Positions 1,454-53,263 of a stretch of DNA of 64,000 nt are shown in pieces. This DNA comes from Trifolium pratense. Lineage: Eukaryota; Streptophyta; Magnoliopsida; Fabales; Fabaceae. A program made the translations under genes and the position numbers. The DNA lies in NCBI RefSeq assembly GCF_020283565.1, contig NC_060059.1, positions 1,247,501 to 1,311,500 of the forward strand, in the 5' to 3' direction. The first letter of the stretch is position 1, and the number at the start of each line of letters is the position of its first letter. Under the pieces are notes generated by a model that saw only the letters and a program-made list of their open reading frames with translations, ran no database searches and had not been told where the DNA came from.

Positions 1454-4213
1454 GAAACTGCTTTTCAAAAAACTGCTTTTCAGATTCATCGATTAACAAA
1501 GTGATAAAGGTAAATTATGTTGTTGATGGACTTCATGGTTAATGGTGGTTTACTACTGTACACGTAATAATTGTACAATATCAATATCAATTTTTTTTTA
1601 AAACAATACAATATCATTATCATTGATGCTGAGCAAGAGTGGGATAGGAGCTAGGAAGAGGAAGATTAGGAAGTCGGCTAAAGTTTGAATAATGGATGGT
1701 AACTGTGGTATCATTCTCCATAAATAATAATAGGGTTAAATAAATGTTTGAGACCCTTACAAATATGTGACTTTTCAATATTGATCTCTATTATTATATT
1801 CTTTTTTTCTCCCCGGTGTTTTCACCCTTTGCCAGTTTGGTCCTTGTTATTAATTTTTTGTTGATTAGGAAGGATAACAGAAGTGCCATATAAATGCGCC
1901 ATTGTGATGTTTTATTCTTCAGCACCCTAATTATTCCATCTTCTCCAACACCTCAATCCAAAAATTTCACATTCATTCACACCAAGAATTCAAAAAATCA
2001 AAATCAAGAAACTTTTTCATAGTCAACATAAAAATCCTATTTCCCCCAAAATTCACTCATACTTTAAACCAAAGAACAAAAAAAGCTTCTTCCCCCACAA
2101 CAAAATCCATCTTCACCAGCAACAACCCCTTTCTAACAGTATCCCTCTCATCTTGTTAATCCCACAAGCCTAGCGCCACACCTCACTTCAAATGTTTTGT
2201 TTTTGTAGGCAACATTCTTGCAATAAAGCTCAAAGCAAACTATTTCTTCCTTCTATTTTCGGCTTTAAAATCCTTCCCTATATTTTTAATATTGTACTTT
2301 AAATACTTAAAGATTGAGTTTCATTCTTAGATCAGGATCAAACTCGGATATCATGATTTGCAGTGGATCGCATATGAATCAAACTCATCTATCGGAAATC
2401 AAACTTTATTCATACCATCACAACAACACAAAATTATCATCATCACACAGGATAATGCAAAAAAGACGTAGAATAATAAATCACTACTGGAAAGCGAGAA
2501 AAATTGCGTGCAATTTAGTAGTGAGACCGAGACGCATGAAGCACGAAGGTAAAACTGTGGGACTATTGCTCATTTTATAGTTACAAAGGTAGCATGAAAA
2601 TATTGTATGTGGCTTTTATTTTATTTTTTGGTATCAGTGGGAGTTTGAAAGGTAATAAATAGCCAGAATGCTCAAGCACAACTCTCATTTATACAAGTAA
2701 AAAGGATGATCTTGTGACCTGTTTTCCATGGTTTTAGAAAAATAAAAACAGAACTGTGGTTTAGCTCAAAATACCAGTGAAACCGGTACAAAAAGGAGAG
2801 AAAACCGATATCCACTTTGGCGTTGAGTTTGTCTGAGATCAAACGATGTCCATTACATTACTTAGTACTTGCATTATAACATTAGACAAATTATTCAACC
2901 ATATATGTTTGATAACTTGCTCCATGACCAAGACTTTTCCCTTTTCCATCCTGATACCTAATGTGCTTCACTGGATTCAATCAAGTGTCTTGTTTTTCGT
3001 TCTGTAATTTTAGCCAACATATAGAATAATAGAAACCTCTTTCCACTTGTTATTGATTGAGCTTTGTTTACTACCTTTGTGTTTTTTCTAAGCAAGCTAC
3101 CTAACTTATTTCAATTTTCCTTTTTTATTTTACACAAGAATCATGTATAATAACACTCTTTAGATCTTAACATTTTGTTTTAATTTACACAAGAATCATG
3201 TAAACAATCCTCTCTTATCAATAACAAGTAGTAGCTGTAGTAAAATTAAAAGTTATAGCAAAAATCTATTACATTTTAATCCTAGGCATTACTCATTAGC
3301 ATCCATTATACCCTCATGAACACCTTAATACCCTCTTGCATTATTCCAACCGACATAGAAAGGTGAGGGGGAGGATAATAAGTTACAAGAGCACCCTTCT
3401 CATGAGACTAACATCAAATGATGAAATGAGAACATGCCTAAAATATTATGCGGTAAACACCAATAAAGAGAGCTTCAAAAATGAATTCCATAACTTTAAA
3501 AAGAAAAAGACATGGTGACTTTGAGTGTGTAGTGCTCAACAATCATGTAAACAATCCTCTCTTATCAATAACAAGTAGTAGCTGTAGTAAAATTAAAAGT
3601 TATAGCAAAAATCTATTACATTTTAATCCTAGGCATTACTCATTAGCATCCATTATACCCTCATGAACACCTTAATACCCTCTTGCATTATTCCAACCGA
3701 CATAGAAAGGTGAGGGGGAGGATAATAAGTTACAAGAGCACCCTTCTCATGAGACTAACATCAAATGATGAAATGAGAACATGCCTAAAATATTATGCGG
3801 TAAACACCAATAAAGAGAGCTTCAAAAATGAATTCCATAACTTTAAAAAGAAAAAGACATGGTGACTTTGAGTGTGTAGTGCTCAACAATCAAAGGGTCC
3901 CTCCCTAAAGCCAGAAGGTGAGGATTGCTCAACAACCTGCTCTGATTAAAGACTTGTATAATCGAAAGACCACTGCCTATTTCTTCAGTAATCATTAAAT
4001 TTCAATTGGCATTGGTTGACTAGATTTCCTAAATACAGTTCCAAAAGTTTCAAACTAATGTTTCGAGGCATCACAACAAAAAAGGAGTTATTTTCAATAA
4101 AAGGTTTAAACAACATATAACATCACCAACTCTAACACCACTAGTAATGATTTCCTATGGTACAATGCATTGAAAGAAAACAATTGATTTCTATACCAGC
4201 TATGCAGCTACCA
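1454..4213. other. Intergenic region between ASA and prefoldin 5; no supported gene
   Basis: This AT-rich stretch holds the tandem duplication at 3194-3887 and a degraded repeat at about 1733-1880 resembling the ends of common legume repeats (GGGTTAAATAAATG...). An 88-codon open frame at 2314-2580 resembles nothing I know and lacks recognisable domains, so I do not call it a gene. Confidence 0.6.
3194..3887. repeat. Perfect-looking 347-bp tandem duplication (two copies)
   Basis: Copies occupy 3194-3540 and 3541-3887 and appear base-for-base identical where I compared them. The same 60-codon open frame occurs in both, offset by exactly 347 bp (3336 and 3683). No coding function is evident. 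Near identity suggests a very recent duplication, or an assembly artefact. Confidence 0.85.
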
Positions 4214-7384: not shown

Positions 7385-10300
7385 AGATGGGTTTTTATTC
7401 TGGCCCCCTAAAACAATCCACTAACATGCAATGCAAAAAAAACATTATTCTCAAAATATGTTGGAAAAGTAGCATACTCTAATCCAAGAAATTAGGAATG
7501 ACAGTGGAACTTGAGAAATGCAACAAGCTTTCAACCACTAATTACTTCTTCCACTGCAACAATAACTCACCAATTAAAACTCAAAACCAACTATGAAAGT
7601 GAAACAGAAGCAATCAATTCAAGATTCCATTAACATCCAAGCTTGGAGAGTTTCAACTCAACAATTAAAACAAATTCCACGGCACTTGTTGCACAACGAT
7701 CAAGGTTTTGAATACCTATTCCAGCCTAAATCCAATTTATCAGCAGCAACACCACTATCAAATAAATAAATATAATACTCTATCTCTTGTGCCTAAACCT
7801 AAATGAAAAAAGAGCTTCAATGCATGATAAGTAAATTTGTATACAAAACAGACTTCCCTGCTAGGTGTGATTTGAGGGAGGGAGGGAACACTCACTAGGA
7901 CAGGTCAGTCAAATAATTAAGATTGTAAATTTCTTGATGGAACTTTATGTATCATAATTTAAGTTTACTAGCAAAAACAGCAAAAATATATCCAAAATTC
8001 CATTTGACTAATAATATAAGGAGAAAACTTACATTTAAAACTATGTACAACATAAAATGTATCCAGAACCTTGCATTAAGGGAAATTGAGAGAGCATATC
8101 ATGCACGGCGTTTACTCAAACGCCATGAATTTGGCTCGTGGTATCTATCATAAAGTGGTTCAATACGCTCTTGACGCTTTCGTTTGCTCATCTTTGTAGG
8201 ATCTGCCACTTTGAAGAATTGTGGAGCCAATTCAACAAGCCATTTTGGGTCTATGACTGTGACCTCACGCATATATTCCTTAGTTGTCATTACAAGCTCG
8301 TGGTATATTACCCAGTCTGGCTGCCTCTGGAACAAAGCTGAACTTGGATGGATATATACAGGCTGATTCTCAACAAGGGTTCTGTAACCTTCCTGGGGGT
8401 CCTTTCTAGCTGCATGAAAAAAGAACCCAGCAGTGATAGCCTTCCTGGTCTTTGTGAAATTTTTTCAAGCACTCACAACATCCAATTTGTACCTGAATAT
8501 CAGTGTTGATGATCAGAGTACAATTTAATCTGAGTAAATGATACTTCACAAGACTAATGTCATCATAATAACTATATAAACCACACAATACAGCAAAATG
8601 TTAAAATAATGGCAACAAGAAGCCCAGAGTAAATAATACTCAGGTATCCTCAATATAAGGGAAAAAGATACTTCTCTTTCCATTATACAGTCTAACATTA
8701 AAAAACAAGTGCATCAGTAAAATCATTGAGAATCTAAAATAATAGTATTGTGCAAATTAAATATATAGAACTGAAGGGGACATTTTTTTTTTCTTTTGAC
8801 AATTACATTTAACATTTACTATAATAAGCTTTTCCTTTCAAGAGGCAAATTTCCTAACATGTTTTTTTTTTTTTTTTAATCATAATGTTATAAAAATTAC
8901 CTATGATTATAACCCCTTGCCACATATCTTCCATGCTTAGGAATTATGTAGGACAAGGTTTCCCATTGATGTACAAAACAAAGAAACAAAAGCAAGCAAA
9001 ATTTTATAAGATATATAAATAGATAGATAGATATCTTACTTATCCATGATGGTGAGAAGTTGTTTCCTTACATCCTGGGCTCTTCTCAAGGATCGAGATT
9101 GAACAAAGTTCTCAAAACACCAAGGTCCAGAAAAGTTTTTACTTTTCCAGGATTCATAAACAGCAAGTAGTGTAAGATGGTCACCCTCTGCCTGGAAAAA
9201 CCTTGCCTTTTTCTGATCTGCTTGAGCTTGTTTTTCCCTGGGCCTGTAAAAAATATTGCCAGTCTGGATCATGGCAATTATGGTCAAAATCTCATCACTG
9301 CATCCAAGGTCTACACTGGCAAGCAGCATCTTGGACAGTGGCGGATCCAAAGGAAATTCAGCCATTTTCCTACCCAATTTGGTTAGAAGACCCTCTTCAT
9401 CCAATGCTCCAAGACTGTAGAGCTGCTCCATGGCGGAAATAAGTGCTTGGGGTGAAGGTGGATCCATAAAATCAAATGATAGAAGATCATTTATACCCAT
9501 AGCTTTCATGCTAAGAGTAGTTGTGCCCAGATTTATCCTTTGAATCTCTGGAATTGAAGTAGGAGACATCTCATTCCTATATGCACTCTCGGTATAAAGA
9601 CGGTAACATTTTCCAGGTCCAGTACGCCCTGCACGTCCAGCTCTTTGTTTAGCAGACGCTTGTGATATTGGAGTTATCACCAAGGAATCAAGACCTAGTT
9701 TCGGGTTATAAACATTTTGCTTAGCAAACCCCGGATCAATGACATAAAATATCCCATCAATAGTCAAAGAAGCCTCAGCAATGTTTGTAGCCACAACCAC
9801 TTTCCTTTTCCCAGGAGGAGCAGGATCGAATATCCTAGATTGCATTTCACTAGGAAGGGCACTATAAACAGGTAAAATGATCAGCTCTGGGACATTCTTA
9901 CCTAATCCCTTCATTCTCTCATAGAGAGACTGGCAAGCAAAATCAATCTCCTCCTGACCAGTTAAGAAGAGAAGAATGTCTCCTTCAGGTTCTGTTAAAT
10001 GGATCTGTAGGACAGTGATCAAAGATGCATCCAAGTAATCACTTTCTGGCTGTTTAGTATAAAGTACCTCCACCGGAAAAGTTCTGCCAGGAATTGTGAA
10101 GATGTTACAGTTAAAGAAGTATCCTGAAAAATTTTCAGCATCAAGAGTAGCAGATGTGACAATCAATCGCAACTCAGGTCTACGCTTCACCAGCTGCTTC
10201 AGCAGTCCGAAGAGAACATCCGTATAAATAGTTCTCTCATGGGCTTCATCAAGCATGATAACAAAATACTGTGACAGGTTCTCATCAACCAATATTTCCC

Positions 10301-11357
10301 TAAGAAGCATACCATCGGTCATGTACTTGATTACGGTATCAGGTCCAGTGCAATCCTCAAACCGAATGGCATAACCTACTTCCTCCCCTAATCTACATCC
10401 AAACTCTTCTGCAACTCTCTTTGCAACTGACATTGCAGCCACCCTACGGGGTTGAGTACATCCAATTTTACCTCTTGTGGTGTAACCTGCTTCAGCAAGA
10501 TATTGTGTGACCTGAGTAGTCTTTCCCGAACCGGTTTCACCAATGACAACCAATACCTGATTATCATGGACAGCCTGAATCAATTCTTTTTTTAACTTGT
10601 AAATTGGCAAACTCTCCCTCTGTTCCTGAATAGACAGCTTTGACCTTTGCCCAAAAGTAATGGTTTTCCCATAGGCATCCTTCTTCCATTCTGGCATATC
10701 ATAGGCCGATAAGCCAACACCCTTCAACTCCTGAGCAAGATGCCTTTCACCTGACTCTGGCATAGGGTCTTCCCAAGGACGATTGAGATCCTTTGGAATT
10801 GAATCAATCATCGTTCGTTGTTGCTGTTCTCTTACTTCCCTTCGTTCCTTTATAAGCGCAGACTGAAGTGCAGCAGCACGACCCAGAGAACCTTCTGGAT
10901 TCTTAAATATCTTAACAGGAGACATATCTATTGACGATTTGGTCTGCCCTTGCAAGAAGGCAGGTTCATCGTCATTCATCTCAATCTCAAGCTCTTCCTC
11001 AGCACCTTCTTCTTGGTACATCACTCCATCTGCCTCATCATCATAAGACGGATACTCCGAAACACTCAAAACCCCCGAAGCAATCAACTGTTTCGCTTCC
11101 CATATCTCAGGAGAGCTCATTCTCTTCAACGGCCTGCGCGAAGAACCAACATCATCCTCTTCAACAATCCTGATCCCAGAAAGCCCTGTCCTAGCCACCG
11201 GACCATCTTTTGAATCTTGTGGATTAGTCCGAAAAGTCTCCTCCTCCGATCTCTTCTTCAACGGAAGAAGATCCTTCCCGGTATGTTGATCAACATCCCT
11301 CATGGAAAGACTCAACTTCGAACCAGAAACCGAAATCACCTTCACATAAACCTGTTG
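7385..11357 (-). repeat. Segmental duplicate A of the PRP22 locus (partner at 18178-22393)
   Basis: From about 7385 to 11357 this segment matches 18178-22393 nearly base for base in exons, and with small indels in the intron and 3' flank. The partner is longer because it has about 250 bp that copy A lacks in the 3' flank. Homology stops at 11357, where copy A breaks off inside the S1-domain coding region. Confidence 0.9.
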
Positions 11358-11375
11358 TTGCATTTGTAGATGCAT
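8099..11375 (-). pseudogene. PRP22/DHX8-type DEAH-box helicase, truncated copy with internal stop
   Basis: This copy keeps the long exon (open from 11375 to the AA|GTAAGA donor at 9040) and the last exon (about 8492-8099). It is almost identical to the intact gene at 19125-23278, but three faults make it a likely pseudogene. It lacks roughly the first 300 residues (N-terminal domain, RD/RE region, most of the S1 domain), beginning only at [12 protein letters not shown]. The ATG at 11375 lies in unrelated filler DNA (MHLQM). In the last exon the intact copy reads VSAGKNFTK, but here GGA has become TGA (8465-8467), removing about 120 C-terminal residues. The helicase core remains open: [50 protein letters not shown]. 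One change, K to N, follows the SAT motif. A truncated protein could still be made if a promoter lies upstream. Confidence 0.85.
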
Positions 11376-11413
11376 TTGTTGATCACCTTCCCGGTATGTT
11401 GATCAACATCCCT
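11358..11413. other. Filler DNA at the 5' breakpoint of the duplicated helicase
   Basis: Homology to the intact helicase ends at 11357. The next 56 bp contain a 16-bp block (11366-11381) identical to 11449-11464 and a 28-bp block (11386-11413) identical to 11273-11300. Both sources are within about 115 bp. This patchwork is what template-switching end repair leaves. Confidence 0.75.
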
Positions 11414-18177: not shown

Positions 18178-21100
18178 ATTATTCTGGTCCCCTAAAACAG
18201 TCCACTAACATGCAATGCAAAAAAACATTATTCTCAGTTCTCACGCTGATCAATCTAAGAAATGGCTAAGAATTGAAGATAAATAAAAATCTCAGAAACA
18301 AAGTTCATAACCAGAGCATTTATTTTTTACACACCAATCACCTCCAAAACAATTAATAACAACCCAACAAGGAGTGTCGAAGTGGAAAGGAGAAAGAAAC
18401 AGATCAAGACTCAACACCAGTGTCCACTCACCAACAGCAGCTGTGTCAAAATCAAAACATTCATTGCCACTTTGTACAAATATGTTGGAAAAGTAGCATA
18501 CTCTAATCCAAGAAATTGGGAATGACAGTGGAACTTGAGAAATGCAACAAGCTTTCAACCACTAATTACTTCTTCCACTGCAACAATAACTTACCAATTA
18601 AAACTCAAAACCAACTATGAAAGTGAAACAGAAGCAATTAATTCAACGTTCCATCAACATCCAAGCTTGGAGAGCTTTCAACTCAACAATTAAAACAAAT
18701 TCCACGGCACTTGTTGCACAACGATCAAGGTTTTGAATACCTATTCCAACCTAAATCCAATTTATCAGCACCAACACCACTATCGCATAAATAAATATAA
18801 TACTCTCTCTCTCTCTTGTGCCTAAACCTAAATGACAAAAAGCTTCAATGCATGATAAGTAAATTTGTATACGAAACAGACTTCCCTGCTAGGTGTGATT
18901 GGAGGGAGGGACGGGGCTTAACTAAAGGACAGGTCAGTCAAATAATTAAGATTGTATATTTTTTTATGGAACTTTATGTATCATAATTTAAGTTTACTAG
19001 CAAAACAACAAAAATATACCCAAAATTCCATTTAACTAATAATTTAAGGAGAAAATTTACATTTAAAACTAAATACAACATACTGTATCCAGAACCTTGC
19101 ATTAAGGGAAATTGAGAGAGCATATCATGCACGACGTTTACTCAAACGCCATGAATTTGGCTCGTGGTATCTATCATAAAGTGGTTCAATACGCTCTTGA
19201 CGCTTTCGTTTGCTCATCTTTGTAGGATCGGCCACTTTGAAGAATTGTGGAGCCAATTCAACAAGCCATTTGGGGTCTATGACTGTGACCTCGCGCATAT
19301 ATTCCTTAGTTGTCATTACAAGCTCGTGGTATATGACCCAGTCTGGCTGCCTCTGGAACAAAGCTGAACTTGGATGGATATATACAGGCTGATTCTCAAC
19401 AAGGGTTCTGTAACCTTCCTGGGGGTCCTTTCTAGCTGCATGAAAAAAGAACCCAGCAGTGATAGCCTTCCTGGTCTTTGTGAAGTTTTTTCCAGCACTC
19501 ACAACATCCAATTTGTACCTGAATATCAGTGTTGATGATCAGAGTACAGTTTAATCTGAGTAAATGATACTCACAAGACTAATGTCATCAAAATAACTAT
19601 ATAAACCACACAATACAGCAAAATGTTGGTTAAAATAATGGCAACAAGAAGGCCAGAGTAAATAATACTCGGGTATCCTCAATATAAGGGAAAAAGATAC
19701 TTCTCTTTCCATTATATACAGAGTATAACATTAAAAAAACAAGTGCATCAGTAAAATCATTGAGAATCTAAATAATATTGTGCAAATTAAATATATAGAA
19801 CTGAAGGGGACATTTTTTTTTTGTGTGACAATTACATTTAACATTTACTATAATAAGCTTTTCCTTTCAAGAGGCAAATGTCCTAACATGTTTTTTTTTT
19901 TAATTTTTTATCATAATCTTATAAAAATTACCTATGATTATAACACCTTGCCACATATCTTCCATGCTTAGGAATTATGTAGGACAAGGTTTCCCATTGA
20001 TGTCCAAAACAAAGAAACAAAAGCAAGCAAAATTTTATAAGATATATAAATAGATAGATAGATAGATAGATATCTTACTTATCCATGATGGTGAGAAGTT
20101 GTTTCCTTACATCCTGGGCTCTTCTCAAGGATCGAGATTGAACAAAGTTCTCAAAACACCAAGGTCCAGAAAAGTTTTTACTTTTCCAGGATTCATAAAC
20201 AGCAAGTAGTGTAAGATGGTCACCCTCTGCCTGGAAAAACCTTGCCTTTTTCTGATCTGCTTGAGCTTGTTTTTCCCTGGGCCTGTAAAAAATATTGCCA
20301 GTCTGGATCATGGCAATTATAGTCAAAATCTCATCACTGCATCCAAGGTCTACGCTGGCAAGCAGCATCTTGGACAGCGGCGGATCCAAAGGAAATTCAG
20401 CCATTTTCCTACCCAATTTGGTTAGAAGACCCTCTTCATCCAATGCTCCAAGACTGTAGAGCTGCTCCATGGCGGAAATAAGTGCTTGGGGTGACGGTGG
20501 ATCCATAAAATCAAATGATAGAAGATCATTTATGCCCATAGCTTTCATGCTAAGAGTAGTTGTGCCCAGATTTATCCTTTGAATCTCTGGAATTGAGGTA
20601 GGAGACATCTCATTCCTATATGCACTCTCGGTATAAAGACGGTAACACTTTCCAGGTCCAGTACGCCCTGCACGTCCAGCTCTTTGTTTAGCAGATGCTT
20701 GTGATATTGGTGTTATCACCAAGGAATCAAGACCTAGTTTCGGGTTATAAACATTTTGCTTAGCAAACCCCGGATCAATGACATAAAATATCCCATCAAT
20801 AGTCAAAGAAGCCTCAGCAATGTTTGTAGCCACAACCACTTTCCTTTTCCCAGGAGGAGCAGGATCGAATATCCTAGATTGCATTTCACTAGGAAGGGCA
20901 CTATAAACAGGTAAAATGATCAGCTCTGGGACATTCTTACCTAATCCCTTCATTCTCTCATAGAGAGACTGGCAAGCAAAATCAATCTCCTCCTGACCAG
21001 TTAAGAAGAGAAGAATGTCTCCTTCAGGTTCTGTTAAATGGATCTGTAGGACAGTGATCAAAGATGCATCCAAGTAATCACTTTCTGGCTGTTTAGTATA

Positions 21101-22393
21101 AAGTACCTCCACTGGAAAAGTTCTGCCAGGAATTGTGAAGATGTTACAGTTAAAGAAATATCCTGAAAATTTTTCAGCATCAAGAGTAGCAGATGTGACA
21201 ATCAATCGCAACTCAGGTCTGCGCTTCACCAGCTGCTTCAGCAGTCCGAAGAGAACATCCGTATAAATAGTTCTCTCATGGGCTTCATCAAGCATGATAA
21301 CAAAATACTGTGACAGGTTCTCATCAACCAATATTTCCCTAAGAAGCATACCATCGGTCATGTACTTGATTACGGTATCAGGTCCAGTGCAATCCTCAAA
21401 CCGAATGGCATAACCAACTTCCTCCCCTAATCTACATCCAAACTCTTCTGCAACTCTCTTTGCAACTGACATTGCAGCCACCCTACGGGGTTGAGTACAT
21501 CCAATTTTACCTCTTGTGGTGTAACCTGCTTCAGCAAGATATTGTGTGACCTGAGTAGTCTTTCCCGAACCGGTTTCACCAATCACAACCAATACCTGAT
21601 TATCATGGACAGCCTGAATCAATTCTTTTTTTAACTTGTAAATTGGCAAACTCTCCCTCTGTTCCTGAATAGAAAGCTTTGACCTTTGCCCAAAAGTAAT
21701 GGTTTTCCCATAGGCATCCTTCTTCCATTCTGGCATATCATAGGCCGATAAGCCAACACCCTTCAACTCCTGAGCAAGATGCCTTTCACCTGACTCTGGC
21801 ATAGGGTCTTCCCAAGGACGATTGAGATCCTTTGGAATTGAATCAATCATCGTTCTCTGTTGCTGTTCTCTTACTTCCCTTCGTTCCTTTATAAGCGCAG
21901 ACTGAAGTGCAGCAGCACGACCCAGAGAACCTTCTGGATTCTTAAATATCTTAACAGGAGACATATCTATTGATGATTTGGTCTGCCCTTGCAAGAAGGC
22001 AGGTTCATCGTCATTCATCTCAATCTCAAGCTCTTCCTCAGCACCTTCTTCTTGGTACATCACTCCATCTGCCTCATCATCATAAGACGGATACTCCGAA
22101 ACACTCAAAACCCCCGAAGCAATCAACTGTTTCGCTTCCCATATGTCAGGAGAGCTCATTCTCTTAAATGGCCTGCGCGAAGAACCAACATCATCCTCTT
22201 CAACAATCCTGATCCCAGAAAGCCCTGTCCTAGCCACCGGCCCATCTTTTGAATCTTGTGGATTAGTCCGAAAAGTCTCCTCCTCCGATCTCTTCTTCAA
22301 CGGAAGAAGATCCTTCCCGGTATGTTGATCAACATCCCTCATGGAAAGACTCAACTTCGAACCAGAAACCGAAATCACCTTCACATAAACCTG
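18178..22393 (-). repeat. Segmental duplicate B of the PRP22 locus (partner at 7385-11357)
   Basis: This is the intact member of the duplicated pair. The shared block covers the 3' flank, last exon, intron and most of the long exon; beyond 22393 only this copy continues into the N-terminal coding region. Its 3' flank (about 18180-18860) is also related to 28850-29616. Confidence 0.9.
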
Positions 22394-23278
22394 TTGATCC
22401 CTTTTAACAACCTCCTTAGCATTACCAATCTTCCTAGTAGCCATCTGAGAAACATGAACCAAACCCTCCTTCCCTCTAAAATCATCCAACTGAACAAAAC
22501 AACCAGTATCCATCACCCTAGACACTCTTCCTTTATAAACCATATACAACTCAAGTTCACCAGAACCACGCTTCGAATCTCTATCTTTATTACCTTTCTC
22601 ATGACCATTCTCCTCCCTTCCATGTTCATACCCTTCATACTCGTCTCTCCTCCGCCTCTCATATCGATCACTATCTCTATCTCTGTCTCTATCATTCCCC
22701 CTTCTATCGTCTCTTTCGCGCCTATCTCTTCCTCCGTCTCTATCTCTATCATTCCCTCTTCTGTAATCCCTTTTATCATCTCTTTCATACCTATCTCCAT
22801 GTCTATCTCTTCTATCCCTATCTTTGTAACTGTAACTATCATCATCATCCCTATCTTTCTCATACCTGTCAGTTGATTCCTTTTCCTTCATTTTCTCTCT
22901 AGCTTCAGTTTCGATCTCTTCACGAAGCTCCTTGGCACGATCCCTATCATCTGAAATTGCCAACGCCTTGAACTTGGTCTTCGAAGTAGCATTCTCTTTC
23001 TGAATCTCTTTCTCCTTCTTAGGTTTAGGAGGAAGAATAGCATGAATTATGGTGAGAAGAGTTCGAACAAAGTAATCCGGCATCTCAGCACCGTTTTCTT
23101 TGAGTTTAGCGTCGAATTCCTCGACGGAATCGGAGGAGTGACCTAAGTCGGTGATAAACTCAGCAAGAACCTTGTCGCCGGCTCCGGTGTGGGATTCTAA
23201 CTCGGTGCATACCTTGGAAACGAGTGAAAGGTACTCGAGTTTCTTCAATCCATCATCTTGCGGAATTTTTGCACCCAT
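19125..23278 (-). CDS. DEAH-box pre-mRNA splicing helicase, PRP22/DHX8 type
   Basis: PRP22/DHX8 helicases use ATP to release spliced mRNA from the spliceosome in the nucleus. Two exons, 23278-20079 and 19518-19125, join as AA|G to give about 1197 residues, the normal size. In order: an N-terminal segment shared with DHX8 ([16 protein letters not shown]), an RD/RE-rich low-complexity region (about residues 135-235), an S1 RNA-binding domain (about 242-312), then the helicase core with Walker [10 protein letters not shown] (about 567), DEAH in MLDEAHERT (about 664), [13 protein letters not shown], and [18 protein letters not shown]. The C-terminal OB-fold region runs through [18 protein letters not shown] and [21 protein letters not shown] prefer the ATG at 23278 (MGAKIPQ) over 23302 because LLLLSSI does not fit the family. 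A truncated relative lies 11 kb to the left. Confidence 0.95.
20047..20073. repeat. (GATA)n microsatellite in the PRP22 intron
   Basis: A short TAGA/GATA tandem run lies directly downstream of the splice donor. It is longer here than in the truncated copy (9018-9032), a small length difference between the duplicates. Confidence 0.7.
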
Positions 23279-23640
23279 GATTGAAGACAGTAGCAACAAC
23301 AATTTGGGGGAATAAACAGAGTGAAACGAACCAATTCGCCGCCGCCGACGCCGCCTTTTCTATGTTTTTGGGGCGGTTTTGTGAATTCTGAATGTGATGG
23401 AAAGGTTTGAAAATGAATTTGATTTGGGGATTGATTTTGTATGAGGTTGAGAGTTGAGAGAGTGTAAAAGTGCAAATCCTGAAGGAGCTAAACACCTTCG
23501 AGGAAATAGCTTATTAGTTTTTAGTTTTAGCTTATTTTTCATGCAAATAGCTTATTTAATATAAATTATGTTTTATGTTATTTTATAAGTTAATTTTAGT
23601 GAAAATTATAATTTTATAAGCTATTTTGTTATAAATTATA

Positions 23641-32600: not shown

Positions 32601-32650
32601 NNNNNNNNNNNNNNNNNNNNNNNNNNNNNNNNNNNNNNNNNNNNNNNNNN
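32601..32650. other. Assembly gap (50 N)
   Basis: Fifty unresolved bases. The gap lies about 800 bp left of the tandem foldback array, so the true length and local structure here are uncertain. Confidence 1.
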
Positions 32651-33177
32651 GCTTCATACTTTCGGATATGCAACGTTGACTTTCAAGTCTTCATCAGATA
32701 TGTAATGAGTTGAGGTAGATTTTGAATATGCCTTATATGATTAATTATTAAATTAATTCTAACATCTAACATACTTTTTCTAAATGTTTTGTGGACTGCA
32801 CAATTTTAAAAATAAATTCTACTATGTATTAAATCATGTGAATTATTAAGAAGTTTGATTTATGTTATGACACTAATAAAATTCATCAAATAATTAATTT
32901 TTTTTTACATAATAGAAGAGGGTATGTTAAAAAGAACATGATAGACTTCTTTTTTTGTAAATACCATGAAGACAATAGTTTATTATGCATTGTCATCCTT
33001 CTTATTTGTTCTTGTGTGAGAAAGAGGAAATTTCGTGCAATCTCCTGCAAGATGTGTTATCTTTCACTACCCAGTCTTATCTTGCCACGTCTTGTTCGTT
33101 CATAAATAAAATAACTTTTTCTTTATTTATTAATTAATTATCAATTCTATAATATATACAACGTGGATCATATGTTT

Positions 33178-33235
33178 ATTGATATTATATATGCATTATA
33201 TGTTTCCCAATTACTACGAATTTGGAGGATTTCTT
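33178..33235. repeat. Left copy of a direct repeat flanking the MYB array (partner near 38152-38240)
   Basis: TATGCATTATATGTTTCCCA followed by ATTACTACGAATTT here matches TATGCATTATATGTTTCCCA / CTACTACGAATTT at 38160-38200. The left copy lacks the poly-T insertion carried by the right copy. Confidence 0.7.
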
Positions 33236-33570
33236 GGTGAAAGCTGGAGTTGTTGGTGAATCTTTACATTACATAATAAGGAAGGTGAAAATGATACTTG
33301 AATATATACATTAAAATTTTCGTTCAAAAAATCCATTTGGGAATGGGAGCTTCAAAGCATCGTAACGATACCATCGCTACTATATATCTCATACTCTCCT
33401 ACTACATCTAGTTCAGTTCTGTTTGTTTGGCTGAATGATACTTAAAATTTAAATATGACTTGTTTCACTCAATTAAAAAAAAAAGGTTTTTAGTTTGTAA
33501 TAATTAATTTTAATAAATAAATGACATTTTATTATTATTTTTTGTTATTAGTTTTATTTTGGTTAATGAA

Positions 33571-33780
33571 GGTATTTGGACGGAGGAATAACACAAGATG
33601 TTTTCAACAAGGTTGATATTTATTGTTAAAGGTAAGTGGAAACAAATTTCTAAAGACTTTGTCAAAACTCACACACCAACTCAAGTTGCAAGTCATGCTC
33701 AGAGGCATTCTCTTCTCCGTTCGAACCAAAATCTCCGCCACGGCGGGAAACCCAGTGTCTTTGATCTTACCATCGATACG
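33571..33780 (+). pseudogene. MYB-related (SHAQKYF-type) exon, unit 1, stop-containing
   Basis: Reads IWTEE then TAA in place of the next Glu, then HKMFSTRLIFIVKGKWKQIS and TPTQVASHAQRHSL. The reverse-complement copy follows at about 33893-34100. The acceptor AATGAAG|GT and a following donor-like ACG|GTAATT are kept. Confidence 0.8.
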
Positions 33781-34373
33781 GTAATTTTTTTTCCTTGTTT
33801 TAATCTTAGTGTTTAACAACTTTCTTTTATTTGTAAGAAAAAAGTTGTTAGAAATTAAGATTAAAAAAATAATAAAAAAATACTGTATAGATGGTAAGAT
33901 CAAAGACACTAGGTTTTCCGCAGCGACGACGATTCTAATTCAGACGGAGGAGAGAATGGTTCTGAGCATGACTTGCAACCTAAGTTAGTGTGCGAGTTTT
34001 GACAAAATTTCTAAAAAATTGTTTCGAGTTATCTTTACAAATCTTTCAACCTCAATTATAAACACACTGTGTTCTTCCTCCCTCCAAATAACTTCATTAA
34101 CCAAAACAAAAATATTGATAAACTGTCTTTTATTTATTAAATTTAATTATTAAAAACTACGATACAAATTATTCTAGTGAAACAAGTCATATTTTAAATT
34201 TTAATTATATTTCGACCAAACAAACATCAAAACCGGTGGGTTAACACAATATAAATATGATTTGTTTCACTCAATTAAAAAAAAAAAGGTTTTTAGTTTG
34301 TAATAATTAATTTTAATAAATAAATGACATTTTATTATTATTTTTTGTTATTAGTTTTGTTTTGGTTAATGAA

Positions 34374-34583
34374 GGTATTTGGACGGAGGAAGAACACAAG
34401 ATGTTCTCAACCAGGTTGATATTTATTGTTAAAGGTAAGTGGAAACAAATTTCTAAAGACTTTGTCAAAACTCGCACACCAACTCAAGTTGCAAGTCATG
34501 CTCAGGGACATTCTCTTCCCCGTTCGAACCAAAATCTCCGCCACGGCGGGAAACCTAGTGTCTTTGATCTTACCATCCATACG
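34374..34583 (+). pseudogene. MYB-related (SHAQKYF-type) exon, unit 2, open
   Basis: This is an intact frame through the exon (open 34362-34619) with WTEEEHKMFSTRLIFIVKG and TRTPTQVASHAQGHSLPRSN. No upstream exon on this strand is visible, so it is a gene fragment, not a full gene. The family's QKYF reads QGHS here. Confidence 0.8.
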
Positions 34584-35168
34584 GTAATATTTTTTTCTTG
34601 TTTTAATCTCATTGTTTAACGACTTTCTTTTATTTGTAAGAAAAAAGTTGTTAGAAATTAAGATTAAAAAAATAAATTACTGTCTAGATGGTAAGATCAA
34701 AGACACTAGGTTTTCTGCAGCGACGACGATTCTAATTCAGACGGAGGAGAGAATGGTTCTGAGCATGACTTGCAACCTAAGTTAGTGTGCGAGTTTTGAC
34801 AAAATTTCTAAAAAATTGTTTCGAGTTATCTTTACAAATCTTTCAACCTCAATTAAAAACATATTGTGTTCTTCCTCCCTCCAAATAACTTCATTAACCA
34901 AAACAAAAATATTGATAAACTGTCTTTTATTTATTAAATTTAATTATTAAAAACTACAATAGAAATTATTCTAGTGAAACAAGTCATATTTTAAATTTTA
35001 ATTATATTTCGACCAAACAAACATCAAAACCGGTGGGTTAACACAATATAAATATGACTTGTTTCACCCAATTAAAAAAAAAGGTTTTTAATTTGTAATA
35101 ATTAATTTTAATAAATAAATGACATTTTATTATTATTTTTTGTTATTAGTTTTGTTTTGGTTAATGAA

Positions 35169-35380
35169 GGTATTTGGACGGAGGAAGAACACAAGATGTT
35201 TTCAACCAGGTTGATATTTATTGTTAAAGGTAAGTGGAAATAAATTTCTAAAGACTTTGTCAAAACTCGCACACCAACTCAAGTTGCAAGTCATGCTCAG
35301 GGACATTCTCTTCCCCGTTCGAACCAAAATCTCCGCCACGGTGGGAAACCTAGTGTCTTTGATCTTACCATCCATACGGT
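35169..35380 (+). pseudogene. MYB-related (SHAQKYF-type) exon, unit 3, stop-containing
   Basis: Same exon as unit 2, but GKWK is followed by TAA (CAA in the sister units), breaking the DNA-binding domain. Confidence 0.8.
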
Positions 35381-35964
35381 AATATTTTTTTTCTTGTTTT
35401 AATCTCAGTGTTTAACGACTTTCTTTTATTTGTAAGAAAAAAGTTGTTAGAAATTAAGATTAAAAAAATAAATTACTGTCTAGATGGTAAGATCAAAGAC
35501 ACTAGGTTTTCCGCAGCGACGACGATTCTAATTCAGACGGAGGAGAGAATGGTTCTGAGCATGACTTGCAACCTAAGTTAGTGTGCGAGTTTTGACAAAA
35601 TTTCTAAAAAATTGTTTCGAGTTATCTTTACAAATCTTTCAACCTCAATTTAAAACATATTGTGTTCTTCCTCCCTCCAAATAACTTCATTAACCAAAAC
35701 AAAAATATTGATAAACTGTCTTTTATTTATTAAATTTAATTATTAAAAACTACAATACAAATTATTCTAGTGAAACAAGTCATATTTTAAATTTTAATTA
35801 TATTTCGACCAAACAAACATCAAAACCGGTGGGTTAACACAATATAAATATGACTTGTTTCACCCAATTAAAAAAAAAGGCTTTTAATTTGTAATAATTA
35901 ATTTTAATAAATAAATGACATTTTATTATTATTTTTTGTTATTAGTTTTGTTTTGGTTAATGAA

Positions 35965-36176
35965 GGTATTTGGACGGAGGAAGAACACAAGATGTTTTCA
36001 ACCAGGTTGATATTTATTGTTAAAGGTAAGTGGAAACAAATTTCTAAAGACTTTGTCAAAACTCGCACACCAACTCAAGTTGCAAGTTATGCTCAGAGAC
36101 ATTATCTTCCCCGTTCGAACCAAAATCTCCGCCACGGCGGGAAACCTAGTGTCTTTGATCTTACCATCCATACGGT
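35965..36176 (+). pseudogene. MYB-related (SHAQKYF-type) exon, unit 4, open
   Basis: Open frame 35953-36231 containing WTEEEHKMFSTRLIFIVKG and TPTQVASYAQRHYLPRSN. The SHAQ motif has changed to SYAQ. No start codon of its own exon 1 lies upstream. Confidence 0.8.
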
Positions 36177-36759
36177 AATTTTTTTTTTCTTGTTTTATTC
36201 TCAGTGTTTAACGACTTTCTTTTATTTGTAAGAAAAAAGTTGTTAGAAATTAAGATTAAAAAAAAAATTACTGTCTAGATGGTAAGATCAAAGACACTAG
36301 GTTTTCCGCAGCGACGACGATTCTAATTCAGACGGAGGAGAGAATGGTTCTGAGCATGACTTGCAACCTAAGTTAGTGTGCGAGTTTTGACAAAATTTCT
36401 AAAAAATTGTTTCGAGTTATCTTTACAAATCTTTCAACCTCAATTAAAAACATATTGTGTTCTTCCTCCCTCCAAATAACTTCATTAACCAAAACAAAAA
36501 TATTGATAAAGTGTCTTTTATTTATTAAATTTAATTATTAAAAACTACAATACAAATTATTCTAGTGAAACAAGTCATATTTTAAATTTTAATTATATTT
36601 TGAGCAAACAAACTTCAAAACCGGTGGGTTAACACAATATAAATATGACTTGTTTCACCCAATTAAAAAAAAAGGTTTTTAGTTTGTAATAATTAATTTT
36701 AATAAATAAATGACATTTTATTATTATTTTTTGTTATTAGTTTTGTTTTGGTTAATGAA

Positions 36760-36971
36760 GGTATTTGGACGGAGGAAGAACACAAGATGTTTTCAACCAG
36801 GTTGATATTTATTGTTAAAGGTAAGTGGTAACAAATTTCTAAAGACTTTGTCAAAACTCGCACACCAACTCAAGTTGCAAGTCATGCTCAGAGACATTAT
36901 CTTCCCCGTTCGAACCAAAATCTCCGCCACGGCGGGAAACCTAGTGTCTTTGATCTTACCATCCATACGGT
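36760..36971 (+). pseudogene. MYB-related (SHAQKYF-type) exon, unit 5, stop-containing
   Basis: Same exon with TGGTAA in place of TGGAAA (GKW then stop). Otherwise it keeps TPTQVASHAQRHYLPRS. Confidence 0.8.
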
Positions 36972-37472
36972 AATTTTTTTTTTCTTTTTTTAATCTCAGT
37001 GTTTAACGACTTTCTTTTATTTGTAAGAAAAAAGTTGTTAGAAATTAAGATTAAAAAATTTATTGTATAGATGGTAAGATCAAAGACACTAGGTTTTCCG
37101 CAGCGACGACGATTCTAATTCAGACGAAGGAGATAATGGTTCTGAGCATGACTTGCAACATAAGTTAGTGTGCGACTTTTGACAAAATCTCTAAAAAATT
37201 TCTTCGACTTATCTTTACAAATCTTTCAACCTTAGTTAAAAACATATTGTGTTCTTCCTCCCTCCAAATAACTTCATTAACCAAAACAAATATAGTAACA
37301 AAAATATTGATAAACTGTCTTTTATTTATAAAATTTAATTATTAAAAACTACAATATAAATTCTTCTAGTGAATCAAGTCATATTTTAAATTTTAATTAT
37401 ATTTCGACCAAACAAACATCAAAACTGGAGGATTAACACAAAATAAATAGACTATTAATTTTAATTAAGTAC

Positions 37473-37596
37473 CTCGTTTGTATTTGTGGGATCCTGCGGA
37501 GTCATGAACGACGTTGTCGAAACTGGCATCGGTGGAAGCGGAAACTTTGAGACGGAGGTTGTGGATATTGAGAGAGGTTGTTGTTTTCTCCTCCAT
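37473..37596 (-). pseudogene. Orphan first exon of the MYB-related gene, minus strand
   Basis: The minus strand from ATG at 37596 reads MEEKTTTSLNIHNLRLKVSA and continues to HDSAGSHKYKRG, ending CGAG|GTACTT at 37473, a plausible donor with phase one. That phase fits the MYB exon beginning GT-ATT-TGG, giving KRGIWTEEEH, the usual order in SHAQKYF MYBs. But the exons following on this strand are the degenerate reverse arms (stop codons, for example after SKVAH), while the well-kept exons lie on the other strand. The parent gene is therefore broken. The match between this exon and the array is inferred from splice phase and family pattern. Confidence 0.55.
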
Positions 37597-39091
37597 CGTT
37601 GCATCTTTGAGAGATGTAACATGTTCGAGACATCTTCACTTTCTCACAAAGTATAAGAAAAATAATAATACACAATGAATTATTGTAAGGAACATAATAT
37701 AGAGAGACTATATATTTATATGTGCGGCAAACAGAAGAGATTGGATGGAAGATTTTTTTACAAAATATCCTATATTATTTTTAAAATTAATATACCAACG
37801 TACGAAAGAGAGAGAAAGATTATTTGGTGATTGACAAATTTTATTTGAAAAAAAAAAAAATAATGAGCAAATATTTGATTTTTTTTTATGAACATTCTAA
37901 TACACATCATATTTAGATATGCATGATATATTTGATAAGAAAATAATGATCAGATTTGATTTTTTTATTTATTTATAAACAATCTAATACATATCTAATA
38001 CACATCATATTTGGATATGTATGTTTATATTTTAAAAGAAAATAATGAGCATATTTGATTATTTTTGTTTTTTGTTATATAAAGAGGGCTTCTTGCTTAT
38101 TATTACTAGATAATAAATAGCTAATATATTATTTATAGAAAAACCAATTTGTTGATATATATGCATTATATGTTTCCCAACTACTACGAATTTTTTTTTT
38201 TTTTTTTGGTTACAACTACTACGAATTTTTTTATTAGTGAAAGCAAACAACATGAGCGATTGATGATTATGCAAGGATTTGATTCAACTTTTTATGATTT
38301 GCATACTCATATCTCTATGCATGAAATGATGCAACATTCCATATTAGCCCATAAAAATAATGGATCATGATACTTATTTTCTTTATTCTTTATTTATTTA
38401 TTTTAATTTAATAGGAGTCTATTCAAGTATATTTGAAACATTATTTAATTCCACTTTCTTCTTTTTCTTTATTTCTACTAATTTAATTCAACTTCTTTGT
38501 TCCCCAAAAAATTCACTTCTTTTTTTGTTTATTAAATTATAGTATTCACTTAATTATATTAAAAAAAGATAAACAAATAATTAATAGTATAAAAAACAAC
38601 AACTTAGGTCAAATATAGAAAGCATCTCATTAAAAAAAATCTAAAAAGGTAAAAAAACCTTACCAAAATATTTATTCTGCTGTAAAAAAATGAAGTATTT
38701 GTATTATTCTGTTCTATTCTAACATCCTTAGCCGTATAACCAGAAAAAAATAATTATGATCAAAATGAATCACCACTCCCAATTGAAGTGTTTTTTTTTT
38801 TTTTTTTTTTACAGTACAAACTCAAGAGTTATACCTACAAAAATGTCTAAAAATAATAATTTCATTCCAGCTTGAACTAATTTTCGAATTATGAAATTTA
38901 CTCAATTAGAATTTCTCCTGAAAAAGTCTTCATTGTGGTGGAATTGTGTTCTCTTTGATCTAAACAAAGACATTACAACAACTATTCAACTATTTCTGAA
39001 TGTAAATTTTACAAGGTAGGGAATCTCACATTCCAACAGAATGATTGAGTAACAAAATTTAACCAATGCTTAGCAGATACATTTGAATGAG
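37597..39091. other. Intergenic region between the MYB array and EAPP
   Basis: A/T-rich, with CATCATATTTAGATATGCAT-type short repeats (about 37905-38060) and the tail-only insertion at 38178. No gene is supported. Confidence 0.55.
38178..38232 (-). mobile_element. Tail-only insertion (15 nt poly-T) with ~20-bp direct repeats and an empty site at 33200
   Basis: CAACTACTACGAA plus T7 at 38178-38197 recurs at 38213-38232. The insert is a T run plus GGTTA. The related site near 33206-33220 lacks the insert and the second copy. Confidence 0.7.
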
Positions 39092-51957: not shown

Positions 51958-53263
51958 TCAATGTCAAGTCCTTTAAGATCTATAGACTAGACACCATAAA
52001 TTTTGTACACTTGCAAATTTAGGGTCCTAGTATTTTGGGATTGAAAGTTATTATTTACTTCAAATTGCTATTGTAATACAAAAAAATGCTAGAGGATTTT
52101 AGCCATCAAGAGTTGAGTTGGGAAATTGAAAAGGATTTTGTCCCATAAATAATCCATTTATGCTAAATGTATTACCAAATAGTAGCAACTCTCCTAAATC
52201 ATTAACCTCCTACTCCCACCGTCCCAATTTGATTGACACAGTTGACTGTTGTGCACTATTCACACATATTGCTTTGACCTTATTTTTCTACTAATAAACA
52301 AAAATAAATATTAGCATATAAGACGTTGTTTGATTCGTCTCGATGAATATTGTCAAAATATCCAATTTTTTTAATTTTTACTCTTATACAATTAAAAATA
52401 TTAATCGTCAAAGTTATGCATCAACATGCGTGAAACAGTCAAATGTGTTAATCAAATTGGAACGGAGGGAGTACTAACTACCAAGTAGTGTCTTTTTTTT
52501 CTTCTTAATTAATCCTTCTATTCTCACAAAATGATTCTTAGGGTTTGATTGGTAAAATTAAGCTCTTATAGTTAATAAGCTATAGTTGAAAAGCTAGCTA
52601 GCTGCAAAGCTACCTGGTTAAAATTAAAGTGTTTGGTAAAATTAACTTTTAAAATAATTGATAAATATAAAAAGACATGCATGTTAGTAGGTAGTTTTCC
52701 TCTTTAGTGAGCAGTTTTTTTTATTTTAAAAAAAATAATTAAATTAAAGGTTAGAAATAGAAAAAAACTGTGAAAAACTATAAGCTATAAGTTCAAACGC
52801 TACTTGAAATAAAATTTCAAAAAAAGCTATCAATGAGAAAAACTTTTTACCAAACATTTTTTTTTCCGAACAAGCTTATAAGCTAGTCCAATAAGCTATA
52901 AGCTAGCTTATTGGACTTACCAAACACACTCTTAGTAATCCGAAGTTTAATCAGAAAATAAAATAAAAATTGACCAATAATAGTTTCGTTTAAAATTTAA
53001 ACTCGAATATTTTCGAACGATCTATCTTCTAGAATTGATATACTTATTTTCTCTTTTTTTTACTTAATATTTTAATTTTTTACCTGTGTTATAAATAGAA
53101 CTAGAATATTATTTTGATTATTCCCATTTGTGGCCACAAATTAATTGTATGTGTGTAAATAATCGGTTCTGTATTTAAAAGTGATTATTATTCTCTTCAT
53201 TATCTATCATTCATATCCTACTTGTTAGATTGGTTCGGCTTCATTCAAATCGAAACTATTACA
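51958..53263. other. Intergenic region between PPR and thioredoxin x
   Basis: Contains the PPR 3' flank, a degraded small repeat (about 52200-52480, with the GGACGGAGGGAGTA-type edge common to plant Stowaway-like repeats) and the MITE at 52541. The last ~170 bp form the thioredoxin promoter and leader. No gene is seen. Confidence 0.6.
52541..52931. mobile_element. Tourist/PIF-type MITE, 391 bp, TTA target duplication
   Basis: TTA flanks both ends (52538-52540 and 52932-52934). The left end is GGGTTTGATTGGTAA; the inverted right end is GAGTGTGTTTGGTAA. Internal GCTTATAAGCTAGTCC and TAAGCTATAG repeats make extra foldbacks. It is closely related to the element at 57812-58207. Confidence 0.75.

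Follow-up and report, generated by a model that had tools for sequence, protein, structure and literature searches.

A 64,000-nucleotide stretch of the Trifolium pratense contig NC_060059.1 (C1:1247501-1311500; hereafter the window) carries five tandem units, in each of which an exon of a MYB1R1-type SHAQKYF MYB gene is followed by a diverged inverted copy of itself. The array is very probably a resident MYB pseudogene that was converted in place to a series of hairpins. For the complete explanation, a fold-back origin together with a working hairpin silencer, we estimate a probability of about 0.5; the mechanisms of fold-back and of amplification are those that we infer from the arrangement described below.

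Self-comparison placed the starts of the ~796-bp units at about 33446, 34248, 35045, 35841 and 36636 and the array end at 37441. The other four units were 94.4–98.4% identical to unit 3 over its full length, and unit 3 aligned to the reverse complement of all five units at 75–76% over ~770 nt. The region contained 105 inverted-repeat pairs, the 25 longest of which spanned 170–205 nt at 77–81% identity. These alignments bear out the initial annotation, which had described five ~796-bp units joining a MYB exon and intron to a diverged inverted copy, while several of its details required revision. The outer left edge lies at ~33413–33420 rather than at 33451, and the feature does not end at 37440 but goes on to ~37894, through an exon 1 and a promoter on the minus strand. 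The presumed palindromic spacer proved to be the arms simply running on through intron 2 to an 8-nt loop, and the fold spans ~390 nt per arm instead of ~330 bp.

The content of the arms could be read off because the exon/intron structure of four paralogs (G9–G12, see below) is known. Each arm runs from the 3' portion of intron 1 across exon 2 into the 5' portion of intron 2; the left arm starts ~43 nt within the first of these introns. In the forward direction the frame is GIWTEEEHKMFSTRLIFIVKGKWKQISKDFVKTRTPTQVASHAQ..., without stops in units 2 and 4 and with a single stop in each of units 1, 3 and 5. In unit 2 it scored above cut-off for both Pfam Myb_DNA-binding PF00249 (1.8e-6) and TIGR01557 myb_SHAQKYF (2.4e-8). 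None of the five reverse copies keeps the MYB reading in one frame, and all contain stops.

A search of the 413.6-Mb assembly, whose match counts are lower bounds, returned at least 23 matches, 10 of them at the array locus and the other 13 distributed over eight sites occupied by MYB genes. The best matches elsewhere were G9, G10 and G11 (L009, L010 and L011), three MYB1R1-type genes clustered within about 24–25 kb on C5 (C5:5895.3–5920.4 kb), followed by G12 on C2 and then by more distant MYB genes. Exons 1 and 2 are open in G9–G12; exon 3 of G11 carries stops close to its end, and the four are therefore termed paralogs rather than intact genes. The three exons of 'transcription factor MYB1R1 [Trifolium pratense]' (P0125) match C2 at 98.6–100%. 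At the protein level, 2523 proteins were matched at E ≤ 0.001, and the best 120 of the 2523 carry PF00249; among these 120 listed matches, those named by organism were all from plants, with several white clover proteins near the top. White clover has at least seven proteins close to the C5 MYB subfamily.

Exon 1 and promoter of a MYB1R1-type gene are contiguous with R5, the last reverse arm, which is thus the resident gene, the array being that gene folded back. At the DNA level, positions 37023–37585 aligned to G9 with E 9e-97, most of exon 1 included, and the promoter side aligned to G9, G11 and G10 with E values of 6e-42, 3e-45 and 1e-50, respectively. The TATA-like ATATAAATATATAG is identical in G9 and G12 and changed in G10 and G11. 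No intact three-exon gene is present: exon 1 is frameshifted, exon 2 is broken in the reverse arm, and exon 3 was not found in the window by tblastn with 14 family proteins (E 0.05). The promoter-like stretch and exon 1 form a candidate transcription unit in the minus-strand direction, and the presence of this promoter suggests a common transcript through the tandem hairpins.

Decay of the promoter was compared with that of other regions at alignment columns equal in G9, G10 and G11. The array differed at 9 of 145 such columns in the promoter, 10 of 92 in exon 1, 15 of 137 in intron 1 and 30 of 171 in exon 2. When G9, G10 and G11 were each set against the remaining rows, their promoters differed at 15/151, 14/150 and 10/146 columns and their exons 2 at 3/144, 5/146 and 11/152. 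The slower decay of the array promoter compared with exon 2 was significant in three alignments (p = 0.002–0.003). Relative-rate counts against the paralogs agreed, the promoter being not faster (13 to 24, 16 to 24 and 9 to 15) and the R5 body faster (54 to 17, 58 to 18 and 50 to 27). By these alignments, the array promoter has decayed no faster than the sister promoters. A pooled comparison of the promoter with the R5 body (p = 0.0007; with F1, 0.06; with F5, 0.08) was set aside, as exon 2 carries the difference by region.

Each unit is predicted to fold strongly as a hairpin, as had been proposed initially, with a foldback length of 769–818 nt. The minimum free energy (MFE) of the minus-strand units ranged from −341 to −383 kcal/mol versus shuffled means of −141 to −150, corresponding to z-scores of −22 to −34 (25 dinucleotide shuffles per unit; the five units are not independent). 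The minus strand folded more strongly than the plus strand in 5/5 units. Over the whole 4015-nt minus strand the predicted energy was −1834 kcal/mol, with pairing mostly between neighbouring arms.

The array sequence also matches related MYB genes, as the initial annotation had anticipated. Exact 21-mers in common with the array were found in 14 of 784 windows of G9, 10 of 836 of G10, 8 of 794 of G11 and 12 of 970 of G12. The more distant genes gave 2/954 (G13), 2/241 (G15b), 0/282 (G14), 0/346 (G15) and 0/264 (G16). A 4-kb control stretch yielded no match at ≤3 mismatches in G9–G12, the four genes tried. The longest exact match was 29 nt (ACACCAACTCAAGTTGCAAGTCATGCTCA), in exon 2 of G9 and G10.

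In the most likely mode of action, transcription of the minus strand from the resident MYB promoter would pass through as many as five imperfect hairpins, which DICER-LIKE enzymes would cut to mixed 21–24 nt small interfering RNAs (siRNAs), and some of the siRNAs would act on the sister MYB genes. In tobacco, a hairpin with one mismatch in four was reported to silence its target in 33 of 33 lines, strongly in 10 (PMC9263138); its antisense arm matched the target perfectly, whereas here neither arm does. We regard the odds that the array is transcribed and diced in some tissue as even. Measurable silencing of the sister MYB genes seems unlikely, and it is equally doubtful that the locus acts as an in-place multi-hairpin silencer which, through the retained promoter of the gene, is active in the same places as its sisters, a self-tuning brake on this clover MYB subfamily. 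If true, the silencer reading would make the locus a plant counterpart of the tandem hairpin RNA (hpRNA) clusters of flies, with its origin still legible.

Several observations weigh against the favoured explanation, the first group of them on the side of function. Differences between the F and R arms fall at 44 of 207 positions in the exon and at 27 of 136 in the intron (Fisher's test, p = 0.79), and they are spread evenly over codon positions (11/67, 17/68 and 15/67), as if without constraint. As exon and intron diverge alike, the arms give no sign of selection for pairing with MYB targets. Exon 2 holds 3–5 CHG sites in the arms versus 6–10 in the four paralogs, which may reflect past methylation. 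The promoter did not differ significantly in decay from exon 1 or intron 1 (p = 0.14–0.22), parity with the sister promoters means little if these drift freely, and exon 1 is only weakly recognisable as protein (E 0.02–0.03).

The flat divergence, the low number of CHG sites and the frames broken in 5/5 reverse arms and in exon 1 would all be expected of a dead pseudogene array, that is, repair or recombination debris that is silent or methylated and gives rise to no consequential small RNAs. A microhomology join and unequal crossing-over would account for its tandem spread. This alternative concerns function and is compatible with the alternative origins treated below, and we rate it as a serious one, a little short of an even chance. 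It is opposed by the promoter, whose decay has not outpaced that of the paralog promoters, by CpG, which is not depleted in the arms (observed/expected 0.68–1.07 vs. 0.71–1.03 in the four genes), and by the fact that any transcript must fold.

Base changes that keep G-U pairs showed no significant strand asymmetry in the F-R consensus (20 on the minus strand, 11 on the plus strand; p = 0.15). For F1/R1 alone the counts were 25 to 11 (p = 0.029), and the other five comparisons gave p = 0.23–0.39. Among changes polarised by the paralogs, C-to-T exceeded G-to-A on the minus strand (16 vs. 5, p = 0.027; 23 unresolved sites left out). This excess was examined after the folds had been seen and is treated only as a hint.

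Concerning the origin of the arms, a tree of 14 rows (two support values per node) recovered an F clade (100/100) and an R clade (100/100) as sisters (92/89), with G11 next (94/90). A tree placing F with the three C5 genes and excluding R was worse (approximately unbiased (AU) test, p = 0.021). F and R also have in common an intron 2 insertion that is absent from G9, G10 and G11. The stem of the R clade is longer than that of the F clade (0.17 vs. 0.12). The F+R support lies under the tool's threshold for 'shown', and the kinship of the arms is therefore graded as likely. Plain identity points the other way, F being nearer to G9 (83%) than to R (76%), and on C5 the genes G9 and G10 are themselves arranged tail to tail, ~10 kb apart, with a bZIP-type gene between them. 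Two independent MYB paralogs could thus have landed tail to tail and recombined; given the tree, the AU test and the common insertion, we consider such a convergent duplicate improbable.

The bZIP-type gene on C5 also bears on where the C1 locus came from. A 71-nt fragment to the left of the array, which we take by recognition of its sequence to be a group-A (ABI5/AREB-type) bZIP, has its only other copy found (40 of 111 candidates scored) in that gene, at 90% identity. The C1 locus is accordingly likely to derive from the C5 cluster, probably as a transposed or template-switched product. The fragment is placed to the resident gene as it is to G10 on C5, from which R would hold the original orientation.

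The centre of every unit reads CTTTCTT-TTATTTGT-AAGAAAAAAG. The equivalent site in intron 2 of G10 is AACAACTTTCTT-TTATTTGT-AAGGAAATTGTT, where 10 of 12 positions can form Watson-Crick pairs around an 8-nt loop; pairing was 9/12 in G9 and 7/12 in G11. Places pairing as well within the intron piece numbered 2 of 100 in G10, 3 of 169 in G9 and 29 of 189 in G11. This repeat fits, without proving, fold-back priming at a short inverted repeat. In yeast, natural inverted repeats near a break are reported to yield inverted duplications (PMC10622511); the process was shown there in mutant yeast, whereas in clover it would rest on one locus and a weak repeat in the paralogs.

The second group of opposing points falls here. 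In G11, the nearest paralog, the fold-site repeat is poor, and 68 of 200 shuffles contained somewhere a repeat equal to that of G10 (loops of 4–12). In addition, the orientation of the loop matches the F sense, while the bZIP fragment implies a gene in R orientation; these two signs would agree if the arms had undergone a flip at a later stage. As the native stem-loop turned out weaker than first judged, our confidence in a fold-back origin was lowered slightly and that in the convergent alternative raised slightly.

The order of the arms in time can be read from their differences. F1 differs from the other F arms at 18–20 positions and these among themselves at 6–11; R5 differs from the other R arms at 18–21 and these among themselves at 3–11. 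Since F1 and R5 are outliers within their own clades, they probably formed the original hairpin; these two are the old edges, and the eight inner arms form a younger interior. All four inner joins read AACACAATATAAATATGA, the next base being T in the first and C in the other three. The end of R (...AACACAAAATAAATAGAC) and the start of F (...AATTTAAATATGAC) have TAAATA in common.

An array collapsed or multiplied by the assembler would be a very unlikely source of this pattern. A gap of 50 N at 32601–32650 does lie ~760 bp to the left, but no gap falls inside the array, which is only 4 kb long, and the units carry private differences, with the edge arms most different. A foldback transposon or miniature inverted-repeat transposable element (MITE) that picked up a MYB exon and was afterwards amplified at this locus is least probable of all, since, despite the similar TCTGTTTGTTTGG sequence in which the inverted arms end at both outer edges, the arm ends align with intron 1 of G10 and G11, the right arm continues into exon 1 and promoter, no target-site duplication was seen by eye, and dispersed copies with shared ends were not found among the assembly matches.

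Taken together, the fold-back origin would have proceeded as follows. A MYB1R1-type SHAQKYF gene would have moved to C1 from, or with, the C5 cluster and suffered a break in its second intron. Synthesis by fold-back, for which the weak inverted repeat may have served as the priming site, would then have reverse-copied intron 2 and exon 2 together with most of intron 1. With exon 3 lost, the remainder would consist of promoter, exon 1, intron 1, exon 2, loop, antisense exon 2 and antisense intron 1. After about one-fifth divergence of the arms, a join at the shared hexamer TAAATA would have duplicated the hairpin in tandem, and unequal crossing-over would have raised the number of hairpins to five.

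Table 1. Coordinates of the hairpin array and adjoining features in the window.
Feature	Position	Strand	Remarks
bZIP gene fragment, 71 nt	33218..33288	+	Only other copy found is in the C5 MYB cluster, 90% identity
Forward arm F1 (left-edge arm)	33413..33831	+	Intron 1 part, exon 2 (~33572-33780), intron 2 5' part; F-clade outlier
Fold-back centre, unit 1	33820..33844	.	CTTTCTT-TTATTTGT-AAGAAAAAAG; core also starts at 34623, 35419, 36215, 37010
Reverse arm R1	33832..34249	-	Inverted-repeat and unit alignments
Tandem junction AACACAATATAAATATGA	34243..34260	.	Also at 35040, 35836, 36631; R-arm end and F-arm start via shared TAAATA
Forward arm F2	34250..34634	+	Exon 2 ~34375-34583, frame open
Reverse arm R2	34635..35046	-	Unit alignments
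Forward arm F3	35047..35430	+	Exon 2 ~35170-35378, one stop
Reverse arm R3	35431..35842	-	Unit alignments
Forward arm F4	35843..36226	+	Exon 2 ~35966-36174, frame open
Reverse arm R4	36227..36637	-	Unit alignments
Forward arm F5	36638..37021	+	Exon 2 ~36761-36969, one stop
Reverse arm R5 (right-edge arm)	37022..37441	-	Contiguous with exon 1; exon 2 ~37274-37061; R-clade outlier
Decayed exon 1, resident MYB1R1-type gene	37476..37630	-	MSRTCYISQRCNDGGENNN..., frameshift, ...DNVVHDSAGSHKYKRG then GT
Promoter and 5' leader, resident gene	37631..37894	-	TATA-like ATATAAATATATAG; 72.0-81.5% identity to four paralog promoters

The array is flanked by a 45-bp direct repeat (33179–33223 and 38149–38193, 91%). 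The left flank was also considered as a possible inverted duplicate of exon 1 and its promoter, on a 63-nt match at 71%, and this candidate was rejected, as the alignment was equalled in 31 of 300 shuffles. Elsewhere in the window, 154 bp at 52212–52365 are 91% identical to an intron of a MYB gene at C5:52.72 Mb (L013 4276–4426), probably a dispersed repeat. Two near-identical DEAH-box RNA helicase reading frames, which by eye we take to be PRP22/DHX8-like, lie on the minus strand at 9036–11402 and 20075–23359. They represent a segmental duplication, the left copy being apparently without the N-terminal part in its frame. A two-copy tandem of a 347-bp unit occupies 3190–3892 (99% matches).

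The inverted-duplication model needs loci where the step from gene to hairpin remains readable. Here the donor relatives, promoter, fold point, tandem join and order of events are displayed, which makes this step, and the role of the donor promoter, directly testable; if silent, the locus would still be a clean case of gene inverted duplication in a plant genome. As in hairpins derived by inverted duplication, the similarity of both arms to a single gene family extends past a 21-nt site, and a stable hairpin is predicted in 5/5 units. The birth of plant MIRNA genes by inverted duplication of a protein gene is reportedly a model of Allen from 2004. Plant MIRNA annotation criteria allow a foldback of at most ~300 nt with one precise duplex, a size limit that the 769–818 nt of the array foldbacks exceeds. 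All 22 Rfam matches in 32700–38400 were below the gathering score, the best being MIR7533 with 81 of 230 bits; MIR7533, MIR4208, MIR530 and the others, which belong to several families on both strands, were dismissed as generic hairpin matches. The locus is a gene-derived hairpin array and not a canonical MIRNA by size or Rfam.

Inverted duplication of a gene, which the initial annotation had called the accepted route to plant small-RNA loci, is indeed described as an established source of plant small-RNA genes, with long young foldbacks expected to give mixed siRNAs first (PMC1790633, PMC13128112). For MIR163, the donor gene promoter was reported to be carried along (PMC1790633). The clover array is similar to plant MIRNA and proto-miRNA loci such as MIR161 and MIR163 in that its two arms resemble one family and the donor promoter is retained (PMC1790633). 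It differs in having ~800 nt per foldback, five foldbacks in tandem and a recognisable exon 1 attached, and in being a candidate small-RNA locus.

The chalcone synthase (CHS) repeats of the soybean I locus are inverted. That locus is comparable as a legume case of repeated gene copies spawning endogenous RNA interference, with recombination changing copy number; it differs in that its CHS genes lie in segmental duplications, with 138-kb deletions between them, and in that siRNAs and a seed-coat phenotype were shown (PMC6710647). Arabidopsis IR71 is comparable as a long inverted repeat, reported to be transcribed and processed by DCL2, DCL3 and DCL4; it forms ~3 kb of double-stranded RNA, whereas the clover array consists of five shorter gene-derived folds (PMC12825306).

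A narrow and capped look at paper titles turned up no tandemly amplified foldback of a gene in any plant, and no paper was found to name both Trifolium pratense and MYB1R1. The idea in the initial annotation that such tandem amplification is undescribed is not supported: in Drosophila, hairpins are repeated in tandem in the hp-CG4068 cluster, with 20 copies in D. melanogaster and 9 in D. simulans, and in the hp-tHMG cluster, with 13 (PMC10317233). Like the clover array, these clusters consist of gene-derived hairpins in tandem, hp-CG4068 on a common transcript. The fly clusters act through the Dicer-2 pathway and their siRNAs were shown (PMC10317233), whereas the clover array lies in a plant, is a candidate siRNA source and is still joined to the 5' end of its donor.

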